42,941 bases of DNA. Source: a virus. Positions 1 to 42,941 of the stretch are shown here, piece by piece; the stretch's first letter is position 1, and each line of letters opens with the position of its first letter. The notes under the pieces are model-generated. The model made no database searches. It saw only the letters and a list, made by a program, of their open reading frames with translations, and was not told where the DNA came from. The translations under genes and the position numbers were made by a program. The stretch lies in the IMG/VR virus record IMGVR_UViG_3300035670_000453, positions 1 through 42,941 of that record; one strand, given 5' to 3'.

Positions 1-126
1 CGACCACGACCTCGACCTCGACCTCGACCTCGACCACGACCTCGACCTCGACCACGACCTCGACCACGACCACGACCACGACCTCGACCTCGACCTCGAC
101 CTCGACCTCGACCACGACCACGACCA
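1..126. repeat. 6-bp tandem repeat CGACCW, left end
   Basis: Twenty-one perfect copies of CGACCA or CGACCT, differing only at the last base (9 A, 12 T). The same repeat closes the other end of the window in the same phase. It is far richer in GC than its surroundings. It lies wholly inside the dipeptide-repeat gene described separately. The true copy number cannot be known, because short-read assembly would collapse or break here. Confidence 0.97.
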
Positions 127-165
127 GTAGTCTTGCATTAGTGGTAATAATAATTGAGGAGTCAT
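1..165 (-). CDS. (Trp/Arg)-Ser dipeptide-repeat protein, 5' part (continues at 42941)
   Basis: Unrecognised family. On the minus strand an AAGGAG ribosome binding site, which overlaps the stop of the preceding gene, lies 7 nt before the ATG at 165. Translation gives MTPQLLLPLMQDY and then an unbroken run of Trp-Ser and Arg-Ser dipeptides to base 1. The frame continues without interruption at base 42941 and ends Tyr-stop at 42900, if the molecule is closed there. As assembled the protein is 68 residues: 13 N-terminal residues, 27 dipeptides (13 WS, 14 RS) and a final Tyr. Ser is always TCG, Trp is TGG and Arg is AGG, so each W/R switch is one T/A change. The product would be very basic and aromatic. 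RNA or DNA binding, condensation or membrane activity are guesses. It sits in an operon between the genes at 177 and 42861. Confidence 0.75.
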   Translation of the reverse strand, partial: MTPQLLLPLMQDYWSWSWSRSRSRSRSRSWSWSWSRSWSRSRSWSRSRSRSRSWS

Positions 166-176
166 ATAGTTACTCC

Positions 177-518
177 TTATTTCTGATCTCTTGGTAATTT
201 ATGACCCCAAGAAAAGGCATCGGTGATAGAGCTAGTATTCAAGATCATTTCACCCTCAATCGGCTCAACCTCGCTCATAACACCTTTGGCCATAGCATCT
301 GAAAAACGACCAGTATCAGCGATCCATGCGGCTTCATCAAGCACTAGAAACTGACCAACAATATCTTTAACTCGGCCAGTGGCGAAGTAGGTAACGGTGC
401 GAATAAAGTAAGCTTTCCCAATCTCAAAAGGTAATTCAATTTCCTGCTTGAATGGAATCGCTTCTTGAGTGTCAGCTAATAAAGCCTCAATTTGTTTTAA
501 TACTGTTTGTTTGGACAT
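177..518 (-). CDS. Conserved phage-type protein of unknown function, 113 aa
   Basis: A soluble, mildly acidic protein with no membrane segment. The central stretch (GKAYFIRTVTYFATGRV, then FLVLDEAAWIADTGRF) resembles a small protein family I associate with mobile elements and phages, but no function is known to me. The start at 518 is set by a near-perfect AAGGAGG site 5 nt upstream. Its TAA stop overlaps the Shine-Dalgarno sequence of the downstream dipeptide-repeat gene, so the two are probably translated together. It belongs to the run that begins at the promoter near 1127-1155. Confidence 0.8.
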   Translation of the reverse strand: MSKQTVLKQIEALLADTQEAIPFKQEIELPFEIGKAYFIRTVTYFATGRVKDIVGQFLVLDEAAWIADTGRFSDAMAKGVMSEVEPIEGEMILNTSSITDAFSWGHKLPRDQK

Positions 519-6577: not shown

Positions 6578-7629
6578 TGTTTTAACCTTTCAAGTACTGA
6601 GTTAATAAGTTGTGTCACTCTGTTTACAACAATAGGTGACATTTCTTTTTTATATGTTTCCATTTTTGTTTCCATTGCAGAAACTCTGGCAAGAAGTGTT
6701 TCGTTTTGCTTCTTTTCGCGGTCTAATTCAACCTGCTGTTGCTCAATCTCTTTACGAAGTTTGTCAATCTCGATTTTTAACTCATCTTTCTCAAGGGTGT
6801 TTTTCTTTTCTTGTTGTTCTAGACGTTTATTCGCATCTTTGAGTTGGTTTTCTACCTCTAAGAGGCGGTCTACTGCGCCAATAATTTGAGCTTTATCTAC
6901 CACGACAGAAAGTTTGCCAGCAAGTGTTTCAAGAAACCCAGTAAGCTCTTTTGTTTTTTCTTCGGTGATTGTTTTTTGTTCTTCATAGTCTGCCTTAGCT
7001 TCTTGCCACTTATCCCAGTTGTCTTGATTTTCATGTCGTAGTCCTTCCCATTCTTGTTGTGTGTAGGTCTTTTCTGAACTGTTCGGGATTTCCGAACTGT
7101 TGTTCTCAATTTCTTTTACCCACTTAACCTCATAAGGCTCTACTTTTGGGGGGTATTTTGGCGGATTAGGATCAAGTGGGTGTTGGGGGTCTAAATAGCC
7201 TAAATTCTGGCTTCTAAGCCCGTAAAGGCGATTACCCTTCTCGTCTGTTTGCACAAAGTTAAAATGCACGTGGTCGGCTGTTGAATTACCCGTTGACCCC
7301 ATCTCACCAATCGGATCACCAGCTTTTATTCGTTGGCCTAGTTTTACTAGGTTATGTTCTAGGTGACATACCTGAACCATACAAAGCTGTTTATCATCCC
7401 AGATTTTAACGTTGTCACCGTAGGGTTTAGTTCCCTTGTCCTCATCATGTATCACTTTCCCACTAATAGGGGATCGAACTATAATCTTTTTGTTTTTGTG
7501 TCCAAAGTCAACGCCTTCGTGGTAGAGGATGCCGAATTGTTTGTAGTAGGTGGGGCGAAGGCCATAGCCTTGAGTGCAATAAAAACCATCTAATGAGAAT
7601 GTGTCGAGTAATGTAAATGTTTTAGGCAT
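6574..7629 (-). CDS. Endolysin, M23 zinc metallopeptidase with coiled-coil tail, 351 aa
   Basis: The N-terminal 140 residues form an M23 (LytM/lysostaphin-type) peptidase. Zinc ligands are H37 and D41 in HEGVD and H122 in HVH; H89 in CHLEH and H120 are the usual catalytic partners. The domain cuts peptide cross-links of peptidoglycan. Residues about 195-345 are a long charged coiled coil, unusual for a simple endolysin; it could dimerise or tether the enzyme. There is no signal peptide, so export would need the holin next door. It begins inside the end of the small basic gene at 7622. A virion-associated role is the alternative. Confidence 0.85.
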   Translation of the reverse strand: MPKTFTLLDTFSLDGFYCTQGYGLRPTYYKQFGILYHEGVDFGHKNKKIIVRSPISGKVIHDEDKGTKPYGDNVKIWDDKQLCMVQVCHLEHNLVKLGQRIKAGDPIGEMGSTGNSTADHVHFNFVQTDEKGNRLYGLRSQNLGYLDPQHPLDPNPPKYPPKVEPYEVKWVKEIENNSSEIPNSSEKTYTQQEWEGLRHENQDNWDKWQEAKADYEEQKTITEEKTKELTGFLETLAGKLSVVVDKAQIIGAVDRLLEVENQLKDANKRLEQQEKKNTLEKDELKIEIDKLRKEIEQQQVELDREKKQNETLLARVSAMETKMETYKKEMSPIVVNRVTQLINSVLERLKQ

Positions 7630-7735
7630 ATCGACGCGCTTTTTTACCTTTTGGTGTAGTTGTTACCGGACGAGAAACAGTGACGGTTTTACCCGTTTTT
7701 GTGTTCTTAACGGTGGTGACTTTTTTAGTTTTCAT
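7622..7735 (-). CDS. Very basic small protein, 37 aa
   Basis: MKTKKVTTVKNTKTGKTVTV followed by SRPVTTTPKGKKARRYA: eleven Lys or Arg among Thr and Val residues and no acidic residue. It overlaps both neighbours by a few bases in the lysis transcript. A nucleic-acid or cell-wall binding role would fit the charge. No family recognised. Confidence 0.6.
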   Translation of the reverse strand: MKTKKVTTVKNTKTGKTVTVSRPVTTTPKGKKARRYA

Positions 7736-7862
7736 CGATTAACTCCAATAGTTGTAATTGTTCGTTAATGTAAGAGACTTTTTCGTGAGTTTGCAGACTT
7801 AAATAGAGAAGATAAAAAATAAGTATGTAGGCTAAAACTGCTAAAACTGCAAAAGCTTTCAT
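7725..7862 (-). CDS. Small membrane protein, spanin-like layout, 45 aa
   Basis: MKAFAVLAVLAYILIFYLLY is a single membrane helix, followed by a short helical stretch ending LQLLELIDEN. The position between holin-like genes and the endolysin, and the anchor-plus-helix layout, recall an inner-membrane spanin or antiholin, but it is too short to be sure. A TATAAT ends 6 nt before the ATG at 7862, predicting a leaderless transcript. An ATG two codons upstream would lie in the initiation region. Confidence 0.6.
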   Translation of the reverse strand: MKAFAVLAVLAYILIFYLLYLSLQTHEKVSYINEQLQLLELIDEN

Positions 7863-25726: not shown

Positions 25727-26394
25727 ATTGCCTCCCAAGCAACCCCAGGTGCTAGATAATCTTTTACCATATGCGTAGCAAAGCTGGTTATAGGAACCCA
25801 CAGTTGGTAGCCTCGACTCTTTAACTCATACCACACATCAGCATCCAGGTATCCATACTTATCTAGTATGTCTTTGTTCTCTTTTACAACGTCAGTATGA
25901 CAAGCCCACGTCATAGTATTGCGCTCAGTTGTCCGGTAGTGTTTGCCGTTAATGAGTTCGAGTTTAACCTGTTTAGAGTGAAGAACGTGATCTATGTAAA
26001 AATTCAGGTGGTCATATGGACTCACAATATCTAATCGCTCAAGAGCATCTAAATACCTTTGGCCAATCACCCCTCGATAGAGGTAATCGCATTCTTGAAA
26101 CAGTACATAACCATCTAATTCAGAAGCTATACGATATGACTCTAACATTGTTCCGTTAATACCGAAGAACGTAGATTTAACCTCATGTTCAAAGGGTACT
26201 ATTTTAAGCAGGTCATAGTATTCAACTCCGCATTTATCTAAGAGAAATATAACTTTAGGCTTTATATCACTAAAAGCAGTTATAAATGTTTTTAGACACA
26301 ACTCGTTTAGCTTGTATTTATTATCTTGATAGACTGGGCTAGGATTACTTGAAGCTATGCCGCAAAGTCTATAGATAACTGTAAGTTTTGGCAT
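25708..26394 (-). CDS. Glycosyltransferase-like protein, 228 aa
   Basis: The start MPKLTVIYRLCG and LDGYVLFQECDYLYR (a DxxYxR-type metal or donor site near residue 105) suggest a glycosyltransferase of the GT-A type, as does RTTERNTMTWACHTDVV. It lacks a clear DxD motif, so it could be a distant or altered relative. It lies between the dehydratase and the GT2 gene, overlapping both. A GGAG site supports the ATG at 26394. Confidence 0.6.
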   Translation of the reverse strand: MPKLTVIYRLCGIASSNPSPVYQDNKYKLNELCLKTFITAFSDIKPKVIFLLDKCGVEYYDLLKIVPFEHEVKSTFFGINGTMLESYRIASELDGYVLFQECDYLYRGVIGQRYLDALERLDIVSPYDHLNFYIDHVLHSKQVKLELINGKHYRTTERNTMTWACHTDVVKENKDILDKYGYLDADVWYELKSRGYQLWVPITSFATHMVKDYLAPGVAWEAIWQDLA

Positions 26395-27559
26395 AAAGTT
26401 CTCCAATAACCTGATCTATAAAAGCTATCATCTCTGGAGTAATGCTTGGATGAACCGAAAGGAACATTCCATTCTTCATTACTTCATCAGCGTTCGTCAT
26501 TTCACCATGAGCTATATATTCAGTGTTTTTGTAGGCTGGATGTCGGAGTACGTTGCCTGAAAAGATAGTTCGACACTCGATATTGTTAGCTTCCAGAGTA
26601 TCCATAACTAACTTACGCTCAATACCCCTACATAATAGAGGGAATGAGAACCAACACACCTCTGCATCTTTTGGACTCTTAATCAAAGTAAAGCAATCGT
26701 ATTTTTTAAATACTTTACGCATTAGTTTTTCATTGGCTAATCGAGCAGCTCTGAATTGTTCTAGTTTTCTTAGTTGCACACGACCCATAGCACATTGAAG
26801 CTCAAGAGGCTTCATGTTATAACCAATCTCTTCGTACACATAGCGCTCTCGGTAGTCTTCTGGGAATCCTGGGTACTCATAGACTTTATCGGTAGAACCA
26901 GCACGTCCCCACTCTCGAAGTTTAAGTGCTGCGTCTGCTATTTTTTTATCATTAGTTAGGACAGCACCCCCCTCGCCAGTAGTAATAATATGAGCAGCAT
27001 GAAAAGATACGCAAGATACATCAGCCTGCGTTTCAGCAAACTTTCCATCTATGAGCGTTCCATAGCCATCACAATTATCAAGAATGATATAACAGCTATC
27101 ACCAACCAATGCGCGAAGGGCAACAATATCCACAGGATTAGAGGCAATATTAACAGCGATAACAGCGGAGATTTTTTCATATTGCATTGCCTTTTTGACT
27201 TCGTTTAAGTCTAAGTTAAGAGTCTTTATATCTACATCAACCACATAAGGGATAAGTCCACATTGGATAATAGCGTTAAAAGCAGTTGGGAAGTTTACCG
27301 CTGGAATAATAACTTTAGAGCCCTTTGGCAGATGTAATGCTGTGACTGCTAGTAACAGAGCTGAAGAGCCTGAATTCACGACTACAGCACGTTTAACTCC
27401 AGTTTTCTCGGCTAGTTCCTTCTCAAATGCTATTGAGTTCTCTCCAACAGTCCAACGAGTGCCACCTTGGGTAAGCATGACATTCATAACAGCATTAACC
27501 TCTTCAAGTCCAATCATCGCGCCACCATATTGAATTCGATCTACTTTTGGTTTAAACAT
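26369..27559 (-). CDS. DegT/RfbH-type PLP enzyme (sugar 3-dehydratase-like), 396 aa
   Basis: Fold of the DegT/DnrJ/EryC1/StrS family: SGSSALLLAVTAL near residues 63-75, DNCDGYG at 161-167 and SFHAAHIITTGEGGAV at 185-200. At the position of the PLP-binding Lys in aminotransferases this protein has His190. That substitution, with YVYEEIGYNMKPLELQCAMG, is typical of the RfbH/ColD branch, which removes the 3-hydroxyl of 4-keto-6-deoxy sugars rather than transferring an amino group. It would act with a reductase and an epimerase to make a 3,6-dideoxy sugar. The reductase is not seen here. Confidence 0.8.
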   Translation of the reverse strand: MFKPKVDRIQYGGAMIGLEEVNAVMNVMLTQGGTRWTVGENSIAFEKELAEKTGVKRAVVVNSGSSALLLAVTALHLPKGSKVIIPAVNFPTAFNAIIQCGLIPYVVDVDIKTLNLDLNEVKKAMQYEKISAVIAVNIASNPVDIVALRALVGDSCYIILDNCDGYGTLIDGKFAETQADVSCVSFHAAHIITTGEGGAVLTNDKKIADAALKLREWGRAGSTDKVYEYPGFPEDYRERYVYEEIGYNMKPLELQCAMGRVQLRKLEQFRAARLANEKLMRKVFKKYDCFTLIKSPKDAEVCWFSFPLLCRGIERKLVMDTLEANNIECRTIFSGNVLRHPAYKNTEYIAHGEMTNADEVMKNGMFLSVHPSITPEMIAFIDQVIGELYAKTYSYL

Positions 27560-28505: not shown

Positions 28506-28899
28506 AAAATCTTTTACCCTTCAATTGTTTTCTAGGATGTTGTTTATCCCAATTTCTTTTACACTCTTTACAAGAGCGTGAGCCATTTCTTAAATAAGTA
28601 TTTTCTTTTGTAAATGAATGACCTCTTTTACAAGTAGTTTTTGCATGGTTTTTTGCAGCAGATCCAACACCTCTTAGTATATTTTCTCTTGGAGAAACTG
28701 GCTCAAGATGAGATGGATTAACACACTTTCTATTTCTGCAAAGATGATCAAGAACAAAACCCCTTGGTATCTCTCCAATCAATTTTTCATAAACTACTCT
28801 ATGGGCAAGCTTGCGTTTTCCACTAACAAGAGTTTTCCACATCATATATCCGTCTTTTCTTTCGTAGGCAGAATACTCCCAGCAGGTATCTCTCTTCAT
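28498..28899 (-). CDS. HNH homing-type endonuclease, 133 aa
   Basis: FVLDHLCRNRKCVNPSHLEPVSPRENILRG (about residues 48-78) is an HNH active site: H in DHLCRN, C-x-N-P-x-H with the metal site, and the conserved RENILRG tail. A second zinc-like cluster (CKRGHSFTKENTY then CKECKR) follows. It is inserted between two sugar genes and is unlike them in function, so it probably arrived as a free-standing homing endonuclease. It overlaps both neighbours by a few bases. Confidence 0.88.
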   Translation of the reverse strand: MKRDTCWEYSAYERKDGYMMWKTLVSGKRKLAHRVVYEKLIGEIPRGFVLDHLCRNRKCVNPSHLEPVSPRENILRGVGSAAKNHAKTTCKRGHSFTKENTYLRNGSRSCKECKRNWDKQHPRKQLKGKRFYV

Positions 28900-30398
28900 A
28901 TATCTTTCCAGTTAGAAATAATAGTGTTGGTATTGTCTCTCATCCAAGTAACACAATCTTCGTCTTTAACTTCTTCGGGGATGGTATATTGGAGGTCTAT
29001 TTTCTTTTCAAGCTCTTCATCTCTTACTAAGGATAGGTTTCCTTTGTCCATTTGCTGTACCATCCATAGGAAGCGAGGGTCGTTTAGTCTTCGATGTCTA
29101 TTTACTGATTTACCACCCTCATTAGAACCAAGTACTTGATGGTGATCTATACAAACAGCTTGATTAGTATCATCAATCCAGAGTCCTATGCCCATCTTTT
29201 CGGCTCGATAAATGATTTCAGTATCATCCCAGCCGAGGGCTTCATCGTAGAATTCCCAATATCCATTTAATGAACGTAATGTTTGGGTAGGTACTGCGCC
29301 AAAGTTCTGTTCGAAGTCAGTTAGTTGGTCAGCTTTTCTAACTCCCAGGTTCTTAATGCGTATATTTTTACGCATAAACTCACCAATCACATCTAGATTA
29401 CCATTGAACCAATCCTCTTTGTTTAGGATGTCTGGTTGTATCTTTGGTGCAAAGTACACATCACATGGAGCTATAAAGTCTCGAGGATGTTTTTTACTTA
29501 CATTAACCAACTCTTCAATAGCTGTGGGAGTAATAAGCACAAAGTCTTGTAAAAAGACAAATAATTCACCTTTGGCAGCTTTAATTGCCATGTTGTTGGC
29601 ATTTGCTAATCCATACGTTCGTTTTGTTTTGCCTTGGTGAAAATATCGTATATCTAGAGCATATTCACGAGCGTATTTATCAGCTATCTTAGATCGAGAT
29701 TCTTCTTGACCATCTATAATGATCCATTCAAAGTTTTTGTATGTTTGAGCAGCTAAATTACTAGACATGACATTCCACCATCCATCGCGCAATGTTGGCG
29801 TATAAATGGTAACTTTCATTGATTGATCTACTGGTTGCTCAAAGACATTAGTCCACTTTCGAGCTATATCTTCCCAGTAGAATTTACGGGCAAACTTCTG
29901 ACATTTGTGGCTCATCTTCTCCCATAACTTCTTATCATCCATGAGTTTAAACAACTCTTTTTTAAACTGTTCTTGGACTTCTGGTCTAATGATCTCTCCC
30001 TCAACTAAAAGACCGTTTTTAGCAGTCTCAGGCAGGGCAGCCAATGACATAGTAACTGGAACAAGACCATCATTCTGGCATTCTACAGCGGTAATACAAA
30101 AGATTTCGGTAAAATAAGTCGGGTACACCCATATACCGCACGACCGTCGTAGTGACCGAAGAGCCCCCTGACCAATCCTACCGTGATGGGTGATACCCGG
30201 CTTATCCATGAGTGTTTGTACTTTCTTCTTCCACTCCTGACGCTCTTTGTTATTAACTGTAGCTTTATCAAATAAATCCCAACCGTAGGCTATATCTAAG
30301 GTGACATCGGGGTATTTAGCTTTTAGCTCATCCCACATAGAGAGAATAATGTCTAGACCGCGATCGTAGGAACTTCCCCAGAATAGTTTGTGATTCAT
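28896..30398 (-). CDS. Fused GT4 C-terminal half and GT2 glycosyltransferase, 500 aa
   Basis: Residues 1-190 look like the C-terminal (donor-binding) half of a GT4 enzyme: LFWGSSYDRGLDIILSMWDEL, KPGITHHGRIGQGAL, then GIWVYPTYFTEIFCITAVECQNDG with the E-x7-E type donor site. Residues 195-500 are a complete GT2 GT-A domain (YTPTLRDGWW, FEWIIIDGQEESR). The N-terminal half of GT4 is missing but is found at the end of the upstream gene, so the two proteins probably complement each other or the gene has split. The ATG overlaps the stop of that gene (ATGA). Confidence 0.75.
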   Translation of the reverse strand: MNHKLFWGSSYDRGLDIILSMWDELKAKYPDVTLDIAYGWDLFDKATVNNKERQEWKKKVQTLMDKPGITHHGRIGQGALRSLRRSCGIWVYPTYFTEIFCITAVECQNDGLVPVTMSLAALPETAKNGLLVEGEIIRPEVQEQFKKELFKLMDDKKLWEKMSHKCQKFARKFYWEDIARKWTNVFEQPVDQSMKVTIYTPTLRDGWWNVMSSNLAAQTYKNFEWIIIDGQEESRSKIADKYAREYALDIRYFHQGKTKRTYGLANANNMAIKAAKGELFVFLQDFVLITPTAIEELVNVSKKHPRDFIAPCDVYFAPKIQPDILNKEDWFNGNLDVIGEFMRKNIRIKNLGVRKADQLTDFEQNFGAVPTQTLRSLNGYWEFYDEALGWDDTEIIYRAEKMGIGLWIDDTNQAVCIDHHQVLGSNEGGKSVNRHRRLNDPRFLWMVQQMDKGNLSLVRDEELEKKIDLQYTIPEEVKDEDCVTWMRDNTNTIISNWKDI

Positions 30399-32185
30399 TG
30401 TTGTATTCCATTTCCTATAATAAATGCTTTACTCTCTGGTAACTCTGGTAATAAGTTTCTATGGTACTGACTCTTAAAGAACACACCATCTAAAGCATCT
30501 ACTGTTTCTTTAGAGTAATCGACTTGGCTAACCATGTCATGTAAATCAACGTAGAACTTTTTAGCTTTAATGGTTCGACCAAGAACTGGATTACGCCACT
30601 GAATAAAAATATTAAACTTATCAGCTCGATTAAAATAATACCAAGGTAAGTAAGTAACTCCATTCTGTTCGCCCTTCTTCTTAGGATCGCCGTAGACGGT
30701 TACCTTGTATCCTGCCTTCGTCCACTCTTGAGATAACCTAATAACCGCTGTCTCTGATCCTCCTATACCATTGACAAGTGATGTGGAATCCCACATCTCA
30801 AAGTGAGCACCGCCAAAGTTAGCAAAATAACAAATCTCATTATCTTTCCAGATACGAGGTTTGGTATATTTCTGTCTGAATTGAATTCCAAACGGTTGTT
30901 CTGCTATTGCTTCAGGTAATGATTCTAAGATTGGCACAATCCTAGTCTCTTCGCCAATCTCTTCTAAATAAGTCAAGAGCTTCCGAGCATCAACACAGGC
31001 ACGTTTCCAATCTACTAAGTTCTCTAAAAATACTAAGTCCTGTCTGTGTTCTGGTAAGTCTTGTTCTTCGACTAGCTTCTTAGCAAATACTAAAGCTCGC
31101 TCGTGATCTTTATCTACGTTGTAAGCTAACTTAAGAGCGAGTTGAGAAAATAATACTTTCATCTCTTTAATGTTAGTGATCCCGGCGGTTTGTGAGTCTA
31201 AATCTAGATTACCAGCAATAGTTAGCCAGTGTTTAGCTTCTCGATACCGTTCTTTATTGTAATAAGCGAGTGCTAGGCGTATATAGTGCAGTGGCCCATG
31301 TGGATATTCACTAATAGCTTTATGTAAAAATTTAATAGTATTATCGTAATCATCCATTTTTGAGTAACAAATACTCATAAGATCACAGCAATTGGCGCGC
31401 TCTTCATCCCATCCACTCTTGGTTAAATACTCTTCACCCATCTCTATACATTTTCTAAGTAACTCATCGCCACCCACTTCTGCATAAATCTTCATTAGGT
31501 AGAGCAATGTCCTTGGATCAGCCTGTCCGGATCTGCGCTCATCTTCTAGTTGTGATTCTAGAATTGTCCTGTTGCGCTCTATCTTTGAGAAAGCATCATC
31601 AAGAGATGCGGTGTGCATAATAGCTAGTGGTTTATCATTGTTGTAAGGTATTTTTGTATATTGGTCTCTCTGACCATCAACAGGCATTGGCGTTTCGTGG
31701 AGTCTACCTTTCCAAGTAATAGTACCTGGTCGAATTAAACGCTCTCTAAAATGCTTTATGTCTATTTTCTTAAATGTTTCTTTTGAGGGTGCGCCGTTAA
31801 ATTCACAACCATACCAGTATTCCAAGAAAACAACGTCTTTGCCATTCTTTTTGGCTATTTCACAAGCTGGTCGCAGATTTTCACCTCCTACTAATAAATC
31901 ATCAGCATCCATCCAAAAAATAAAGTCTGTATCTTTAGGTGCACGACTAAAATTAAAGTTTCTTTGCTCTCCAAAATCACTATTCCATGCTAAATAAGTG
32001 TAATCAACCACTTTATAGGGATATTTTACCTCGAGTGACTTAATATACGCCTCAATTCCGGCTGCTTCTTTACCATTGGCTGTAATGTGTACTGAATCTA
32101 CATAAGGAATCACTGAGGCTAGCATATTTTGCAACATTACTAGTTCTGAGTCGTCTTTAACAATTCCACAAAATGCTATTTTCAT
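30395..32185 (-). CDS. GT2 glycosyltransferase with TPR-like middle and GT4 N-terminal half, 596 aa
   Basis: Residues 1-230: GT2 domain with MKIAFCGIVKDDSELVMLQNML and FIFWMDADDLLVGGE (metal motif DAD). Residues about 240-400: helical repeats of TPR type (YSKMDDYDNTIKFLHKAISEYP, ALAYYNKERYREAKHWL). Residues about 435-596 begin a GT4 domain (CYFANFGGAHFEMWDSTSLVNGIGGSETAV) but stop after FKSQYHRNLLPELPESKAFIIGNGI, the normal hinge. The C-terminal half is the next gene. The TPR part may hold protein partners. Confidence 0.75.
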   Translation of the reverse strand: MKIAFCGIVKDDSELVMLQNMLASVIPYVDSVHITANGKEAAGIEAYIKSLEVKYPYKVVDYTYLAWNSDFGEQRNFNFSRAPKDTDFIFWMDADDLLVGGENLRPACEIAKKNGKDVVFLEYWYGCEFNGAPSKETFKKIDIKHFRERLIRPGTITWKGRLHETPMPVDGQRDQYTKIPYNNDKPLAIMHTASLDDAFSKIERNRTILESQLEDERRSGQADPRTLLYLMKIYAEVGGDELLRKCIEMGEEYLTKSGWDEERANCCDLMSICYSKMDDYDNTIKFLHKAISEYPHGPLHYIRLALAYYNKERYREAKHWLTIAGNLDLDSQTAGITNIKEMKVLFSQLALKLAYNVDKDHERALVFAKKLVEEQDLPEHRQDLVFLENLVDWKRACVDARKLLTYLEEIGEETRIVPILESLPEAIAEQPFGIQFRQKYTKPRIWKDNEICYFANFGGAHFEMWDSTSLVNGIGGSETAVIRLSQEWTKAGYKVTVYGDPKKKGEQNGVTYLPWYYFNRADKFNIFIQWRNPVLGRTIKAKKFYVDLHDMVSQVDYSKETVDALDGVFFKSQYHRNLLPELPESKAFIIGNGIQQ

Positions 32186-42494: not shown

Positions 42495-42640
42495 TAATCC
42501 TTAGACTTACTAGCACAATAAAAAGCTGTGATTGCTATAATAAAAGCTACCAACATATCAAAAGCTCGGTCTTCTGGTAGTGCTAGTGATAGCATCATCC
42601 AAGTATGACCTAGGATAAAAAGTATTTGTTTGTTTTTCAT
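42494..42640 (-). CDS. Small membrane protein, 48 aa
   Basis: Starts MKNKQILFILGHTWMMLSLA and contains two hydrophobic stretches (about residues 5-20 and 28-42, AFDMLVAFIIAITAFYC), with a short charged turn (PEDRAF) between them. It overlaps the stop of the gene at 42637 (ATGA) and its TAA overlaps the next ATG, so it is a coupled member of the operon. Holin-like or exclusion-type peptide are possibilities. Confidence 0.65.
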   Translation of the reverse strand: MKNKQILFILGHTWMMLSLALPEDRAFDMLVAFIIAITAFYCASKSKD

Positions 42641-42861
42641 TCAGCCTCTTTCGTTGTGGGGGTAGATAAATGGTCTTTTTCTGAGTATTTAATACCAATA
42701 ATTTCCAGTTTTTCTACCAAGTCTTTGATTATTTCATGGGCTAGTTTTCTCTTGCCCTTATCCATCAAGATATCTCGATAAACATCTACTTCTTGAAGTT
42801 CGTGGTTCAATAAATAAATAATTCCTTTTAGTCTTTCTTCAACCCAGTAGTTTTCGTTCAT
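42637..42861 (-). CDS. Hypothetical helical protein, 74 aa
   Basis: MNENYWVEERLKGIIYLLNH opens a charged helical protein with a second helix (KLAHEIIKDLVEKLEIIGIKYSEK) and a polar tail. AAGGAGAGG upstream gives a good ribosome site at the normal distance. The preceding gene is the dipeptide-repeat protein, whose stop is at 42900, so the two are in one operon across the window ends. Confidence 0.7.
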   Translation of the reverse strand: MNENYWVEERLKGIIYLLNHELQEVDVYRDILMDKGKRKLAHEIIKDLVEKLEIIGIKYSEKDHLSTPTTKEAE

Positions 42862-42899: not shown

Positions 42900-42941
42900 T
42901 TAATACGACCACGACCTCGACCACGACCACGACCTCGACCA
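42900..42941 (-). CDS. (Trp/Arg)-Ser dipeptide-repeat protein, 3' part
   Basis: Continuation of the gene that starts at 165. Reading from 42941, six dipeptides (WS, RS, WS, WS, RS, WS) are followed by Tyr and TAA at 42902-42900. Codon phase and repeat phase both match base 1, which is the main evidence that the ends are contiguous. The downstream gene's ribosome site begins about 10 nt after the stop. Confidence 0.72.
   Translation of the reverse strand, partial: WSRSWSWSRSWSY
42906..42941. repeat. 6-bp tandem repeat CGACCW, right end
   Basis: Six perfect copies (4 ending in A, 2 in T), identical to the repeat at 1-126 and in phase with it. Together at least 27 units lie inside one gene. 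Confidence 0.95.

Follow-up and report, generated by a model that had tools for sequence, protein, structure and literature searches.

The window analysed here, the whole 42,941-nucleotide stretch of the IMG/VR virus record IMGVR_UViG_3300035670_000453, carries a small minus-strand gene, here termed XS, that spans the joined ends of the sequence (42941 to 1). Its AAGGAG ribosome-binding site (173..178, minus strand) overlaps the stop codon of the preceding gene and lies 7 nt ahead of an ATG (165-163), which opens a 13-codon head, MTPQLLLPLMQDY (127..165, minus); relatives have similar heads, e.g. MILLQDY and MLLRDY. The head runs into units 1-21 of a [T/A]GGTCG hexamer array encoding (Trp/Arg)-Ser (1..126, minus), the final six units follow with codon phase unbroken over the contig ends (42906..42941, minus), and the gene closes with a Tyr codon and TAA stop (42900..42905, minus; TAA at 42902-42900). 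The 68-aa product thus consists of a 13-residue head, 27 perfect units and Tyr, with 14 AGG and 13 TGG codons at the variable position (X) and TCG at each alternate codon. Directly 5' of XS lies gene U (177..518, minus), encoding a predicted LSm-like protein of 113 aa, and the next gene 3' (42637..42861, minus; 74 aa, without a family match) has its ATG 39 nt past the XS stop. Scans for promoters and terminators around the U-XS module returned nothing above chance. An earlier note made from the letters of this DNA had set out the XS layout, from AAGGAG to the Tyr-stop at 42900, exactly. It was also right to call TCG and the high GC foreign to the genome: in the genes of this phage TCG accounts for 7.3% of Ser and AGG for 6.6% of Arg codons, and the genome has a GC content of 40%.

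The window ends share an exact overlap of just 6 bases and their joining is inferred; because contigs also often break in such arrays, the figure of 27 units is an estimate. That the window ends are true genome ends was considered and rejected, as the array runs in the same direction at either end and other contigs have it in their interior. By computation, a WGGTCG array is stop-free in all six frames, so an open frame carries no weight by itself and the relatives must decide. A Gly-Arg frame, in which the variable base would be a synonymous wobble position, was suspected first; the window offers it no start codon, phages whose Ser codon is AGC, AGT, TCT or TCA do not keep it, and the plus-strand Arg-Pro frame was rejected on the same grounds.

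Elsewhere in the window, a gene for a 176-aa protein (2241-2771, minus; phrog_7964/5070) contains an 18-base repeat at 2449-2622 that encodes repeats of the GNARVYGNA type, with a 72-bp direct duplication at 98%. Glycosyltransferase and aminotransferase genes (28896-32185 and 26369-27559) adjoin the head genes, and one of the glycosyltransferases has a distant relative in MW202497.1 (28.8% identity).

Sm/LSm-like genes beside the array

The AlphaFold (AF2) model of U has a pLDDT of 90 and matches Sm/LSm proteins in VIA-align, with a best Z of 9.3 and the top 50 rows all Sm/LSm; a Foldseek search of the model agrees. Some arrays that lack U follow a second family, U', which is related to U (hhalign 98.3%) and whose model (pLDDT 95.4) matches the Sm fold at Z 10.5 by VIA-align, again with Sm/LSm in all of the top 50 rows. 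Taking an N-terminal helix followed by a five-stranded small barrel as the mark of the fold, both modelled proteins are predicted members of the Sm/LSm fold. A U profile run with hmmsearch against PDB sequences gave no match at E up to 1, and neither U nor the genes flanking the module had a match of weight in Pfam or PHROGs. DUF6948 (PF22253) matched neither U nor anything within the window, and hhalign of U against DUF6948 gave 3.1%. Foldseek does match U to DUF6948 models, and these matches are the one thing that links DUF6948 to the LSm fold. A search of plasmids found no U homologue, and phage records include one, MW202573.1.

An adjacent X-Ser array was found at 61 of the 71 U' loci, and the first ATG downstream of U' is in the X-Ser frame in 49 of 50. 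XS heads beside U' are basic and MRxxKQKxR-like, and those beside U are MNxAILRxGYD-like, GNINTLW-like or LLQDY-like. The head sequence therefore goes with the partner family, from which we infer a physical partnership between XS and U or U'.

Conservation of the reading frame and turnover of the array

In IMG/VR, 61 stretches with five WGGTCG units were found, 27 of them with a U homologue; among these 27 the array mostly lies behind U, within an open reading frame whose start, in the Trp/Arg-Ser frame, lies a few codons ahead of the repeat. The unit can also begin with C or G in GC-rich phages, giving Arg (CGG) and Gly (GGG). For an unbiased survey, relatives were sought by U alone, with no repeat required. 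One eight-residue pattern recovers at least 390 U relatives from IMG/VR, a lower bound, and pooling U searches with the pattern matches gave 256 distinct U loci. A period-6 array follows U directly at 189 of them and is absent at 62, and 5 end too soon; several of the 62 carry decayed X-Ser genes and some carry none. With about a quarter of U loci lacking a clean array, XS is dispensable in some phages. The U search taken by itself found an array at 72 of 94 loci, with the start in the X-Ser frame in 72/72. Overall, 169 U loci have an ATG that opens into the array, and in 167 of them the first such ATG is in the X-Ser frame; a binomial value for this count is only indicative, since the loci are related by descent. 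At 101 U loci a start overlaps the U stop by 4 bases.

Head, array and stop are contiguous within many other contigs and within the circular record MW202573.1, where the XS member is annotated but unnamed (UOF78858.1). Median values for complete XS proteins are 70 residues, a charge of +10 and 8 Trp, and arrays have a median of 28 units. Viewed by eye, the heads show no signal peptide and no long hydrophobic segment. On this census of sequences, XS belongs to a large conserved family present in hundreds of uncultured phages. The order is reversed, with XS ahead of U, in a few phages (L016, L036, L056).

Several further loci deserve separate mention. Two different phages have an HNH endonuclease gene precisely at the junction of U and the X-Ser gene (L012, at about 7250-7765, and L279/L032), as though this were a homing site. 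X-Ser hexamer runs with different heads, e.g. IHSEPAY, also occur without a recognised LSm-like neighbour (L005/L033, L008, L062). Phage-like contigs of 34-40 kb with U genes (L143-L155) have been binned into bacterial and archaeal MAGs; one, L155, lies within a 649-kb contig and may be a prophage.

The DNA that encodes the dipeptide differs between phages. The majority Ser codon across the 189 arrays is TCG in 111, AGC in 36, TCT in 20, TCA in 15 and AGT in 7, uniform inside each array and different among phages, and of 150 arrays assessed the Arg codon is almost purely AGG in 78, CGG in 62 and mixed in 10. Placed on the U tree, which is noisy because the protein is short, the Ser codon has changed at least 61 times, nearly as often as with shuffled labels (63-75), and so bears little relation to the tree; from these sequences, arrays have clearly been replaced or rebuilt often. 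Composition at X is steady, with Arg at 1754, Gly at 1475 and Trp at 1381 of about 4,920 positions (mean W 0.29, R 0.36, G 0.30), and in 143 of the 156 arrays of at least 15 units Trp, Arg and Gly each make up 10% or more. Almost all X codons are NGG, so that any of them becomes another by a change of its first base. Stop codons close one of the other forward frames in nearly every TCT and AGT array. Because the DNA unit varies and the dipeptide and frame are kept, selection acts on the protein and not on a DNA site, and XS is almost certainly a coding gene in the X-Ser frame, as judged by comparison of sequences. Synonymous Ser-codon changes within arrays are not in excess (20 events, versus 50 and 53 at positions 2 and 1), which is at odds with purifying selection in its simple form, so homogenisation and turnover of the unit, together with decay, also shape the arrays besides selection on the protein.

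These comparisons bear on several claims of the earlier note. The Trp/Arg-Ser frame that it proposed is that of a real gene, and relatives keep the start codon, the coupling and the frame; loss of the start and ribosome site in relatives, which it had named as fatal to its claim, was looked for, and both start and coupling are retained. Its description of the composition as Trp or Arg with Ser holds for this window but not as a rule, since relatives also use Gly and the Trp/Arg-only array is a local extreme. It mentioned neither the constant LSm-like neighbour nor the sister Gly-X arrays behind DUF6948. The toggling array that it described finds support, as fast variation, in near-identical phages that differ in unit number or by a single Trp/Arg switch. 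Groups that are 99.6-100% identical across 700 bp upstream differ in the array, by an in-frame block (L118/L263), by one Trp/Arg switch (L023/L059) or in length and order (L160/L162, L171/L174, L197/L200/L207), as read from short-read assemblies, a kind of assembly that can itself damage arrays. Neighbouring X residues are slightly more different than chance would predict (lag-1 identity 0.304 versus 0.350). Contigs end within 450 bp downstream of U at 44 of 256 loci, versus 5-7 in each further 450-bp bin, about a sevenfold difference. Contigs thus break in these arrays, which accounts for a window that starts and ends inside its own.

Familiar classes of repeat describe XS poorly. It is not an SR (Arg-Ser) domain protein, a class made up mainly of long RS/SR runs, as Trp and Gly are nearly as common at X as Arg. 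A diversity-generating retroelement target, in which template adenines direct the variation, is contradicted by the 62 of 150 arrays that use CGG with at most 5% AGG, in which the variable base is almost devoid of A. Phase-variable repeats switch frame through a unit length indivisible by three, whereas the unit here has six bases and the array is period-6 in 189 relatives. Finally, attachment or iteron arrays have a conserved DNA unit, whereas here Ser is written TCG, AGC, TCT, TCA or AGT and Arg AGG or CGG according to the phage.

Sister arrays behind DUF6948 genes

In one phage (L012) XS is followed by a DUF6948 gene (PF22253) and then by a hexamer-built gene encoding Gly-(Ser/Tyr/Asp/Glu). 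Comparable Gly-(Ser/Tyr/Asp/Asn) hexamer genes coupled to DUF6948 were found at L012:8009-8700, L393-L472 and L553-L557, and 61 of 71 DUF6948 loci have a period-6 array coding for Gly-(Ser/Tyr/Asp/Asn). The Gly-X gene starts either after the DUF6948 stop or within the conserved end of DUF6948, 13-16 bases in, at an ATG or GTG; of 36 loci with no start after the stop, 33 open in the Gly-X frame at the internal ATG/GTG. As in the U-XS module, a gene for a small protein is coupled to one downstream that spells a dipeptide in hexamers, but here Gly is fixed and Ser, Tyr, Asp or Asn varies, and the chain is acidic-aromatic where XS is cationic-aromatic. Obligate partnership between the cationic and acidic chains was considered and rejected: XS and DUF6948 occur together in just 3 of the 40 XS phages tested, and the two chains are usually not each other's partners.

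Cultured phages with a sister array include Iodobacter phage PhiPLPE (where it is unannotated), Pectobacterium phage Taid (XDF89792.1), Vibrio IKEMa6-1 and Chlorobiaceae CV-1-33; the Gly-X genes are mostly unannotated or hypothetical. The PhiPLPE array lies downstream of gp84; an earlier paper lists it as a DNA repeat, (KMGCCG)35, with the speculation that it serves as an attachment site (PMC3391216, Table 3). It belongs to the same class as the DUF6948 sister arrays; that paper did not recognise a protein gene in it, and we offer a protein-coding reading for a phage repeat once taken as a DNA attachment site.

Possible function and relation to known systems

We propose that XS is a sticker-and-spacer partner of the phage LSm protein with a part in RNA binding or condensation. 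According to this model, XS would be co-translated with the LSm-like gene U that precedes it, and its short head would dock on the LSm-like protein. The (X-Ser)n tail would form a disordered chain, with Arg and Trp as stickers and Ser and Gly as spacers, that binds phage or host RNA and gathers LSm protein and RNA into a condensate or filament. Slippage and first-base changes in the hexamer array could rapidly shift the length of the chain and the order of Trp, Arg and Gly with no loss of frame. Eukaryotic Sm proteins with their RG tails and Hfq with its C-terminal tail offer a comparable case in cis. An Sm fold in U, itself predicted from a model, is not proof of RNA binding. Arg and aromatic stickers with Ser and Gly spacers are an accepted recipe for condensing chains (PMC12772222), and the C-terminal region of Hfq forms beta-rich filaments (PMC10590398). 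Functional partnership between XS and the LSm-like protein is likely. The RNA-binding or condensate role, the simplest reading for such a chain next to an LSm-like protein, is put forward tentatively, and we consider the explanation as a whole as apt to be right as wrong. The earlier note's further suggestion, that the array generates antigenic diversity, is possible; nothing points there, and a role in binding or condensing RNA would better suit the LSm neighbour.

Several other explanations of the locus must be weighed against this proposal, and the first two are serious rivals to it. XS might be a hypervariable protein of conflict, carried by the LSm-like protein, in which toggling between Trp, Arg and Gly alters binding to a host defence sensor, a nuclease, a receptor or another phage. 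Near-identical phages that differ only in array length or pattern, NGG codons one first-base change apart and the slight excess of difference between neighbouring X residues (0.304 versus 0.350) are all in keeping with such a role. We nonetheless regard it as unlikely, as the steady Trp/Arg/Gly composition resembles a physical grammar more than a shifting specificity, the LSm-like partner looks intracellular and short-read arrays may differ by artefact. A little less probable again is an amphipathic beta-strand, one face made of Ser and the other of Trp, Arg or Gly, that assembles into amyloid-like filaments or acts on membranes as a cationic-aromatic peptide in host takeover or lysis. The two-residue period, strictly kept up for a median of 28 units, the charge of about +10 with about 8 Trp, and the Hfq filaments (PMC10590398) would suit it, but the heads, by eye, lack a signal peptide or long hydrophobic segment and the constant pairing is with LSm-like genes, not lysis genes.

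Two more readings deny the array a selected protein. Neutral expansion of a microsatellite within a small gene that phages can do without, or an artefact of assembly at contig ends, would account for arrays that often lie at contig ends, for the decayed versions and for the want of a synonymous excess; it is very improbable given a [W/R/G]-Ser rule that recurs in five DNA versions beside two related LSm families, and given arrays inside contigs and in a circular record with an annotated product (UOF78858.1). The least probable reading is a DNA-level site, i.e. an attachment, replication or recombination array with incidental open frames. It can point to a unit that is almost pure in one phage, to TCG arrays that are open in nearly all frames and to the published speculation on the sister-class repeat of phiPLPE (PMC3391216). 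Against this, all three bases of the Ser codon differ between phages (TCG versus AGC) with dipeptide, frame and start kept, and the sister arrays likewise keep a start overlapping DUF6948; we consider the DNA-site reading refuted, because the frame is kept across differing DNA units.

If the sticker-and-spacer proposal is correct, phages have, next to an RNA-ring-type protein, written one simple protein grammar again and again in different DNA units, which amounts to a natural experiment. The module would then be a compact and genetically tractable system in which chain length and the order of Trp, Arg and Gly can be related to RNA binding or condensation, and would represent a new way for phages to act on host-cell RNA. 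More generally, tailed phages might carry a hitherto unrecognised class of two-gene modules, in which an Sm/LSm-like protein is paired with a hexamer-written sticker-spacer protein to form, inside the infected cell, an RNA condensate whose material properties are rapidly tuned by slippage, the chain being [Trp/Arg/Gly]-Ser or, beside DUF6948, Gly-[Ser/Tyr/Asp]; this generalisation is conceivable but somewhat doubtful. The open-access papers searched contain no description of the U-XS module and no mention of DUF6948, and, judged from that text, the module seems to be undescribed so far.

Among known systems, the closest parallels are eukaryotic Sm/LSm proteins with RG/GR tails and Hfq with its disordered C-terminal region, which, like U-XS, combine an Sm fold with a low-complexity, sticky chain. 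Those tails are attached in cis, whereas the XS chain is a separate, translationally coupled gene written as an in-frame hexamer array, in which every second residue is Ser and Trp is among the others. Both SR proteins and sticker-spacer proteins, spidroins for example (PMC12772222), share with XS the placement of Arg or aromatic stickers between Ser or Gly spacers; XS differs from both in its strict two-residue period, generated from one hexamer, and in being a phage gene beside an LSm-like gene.
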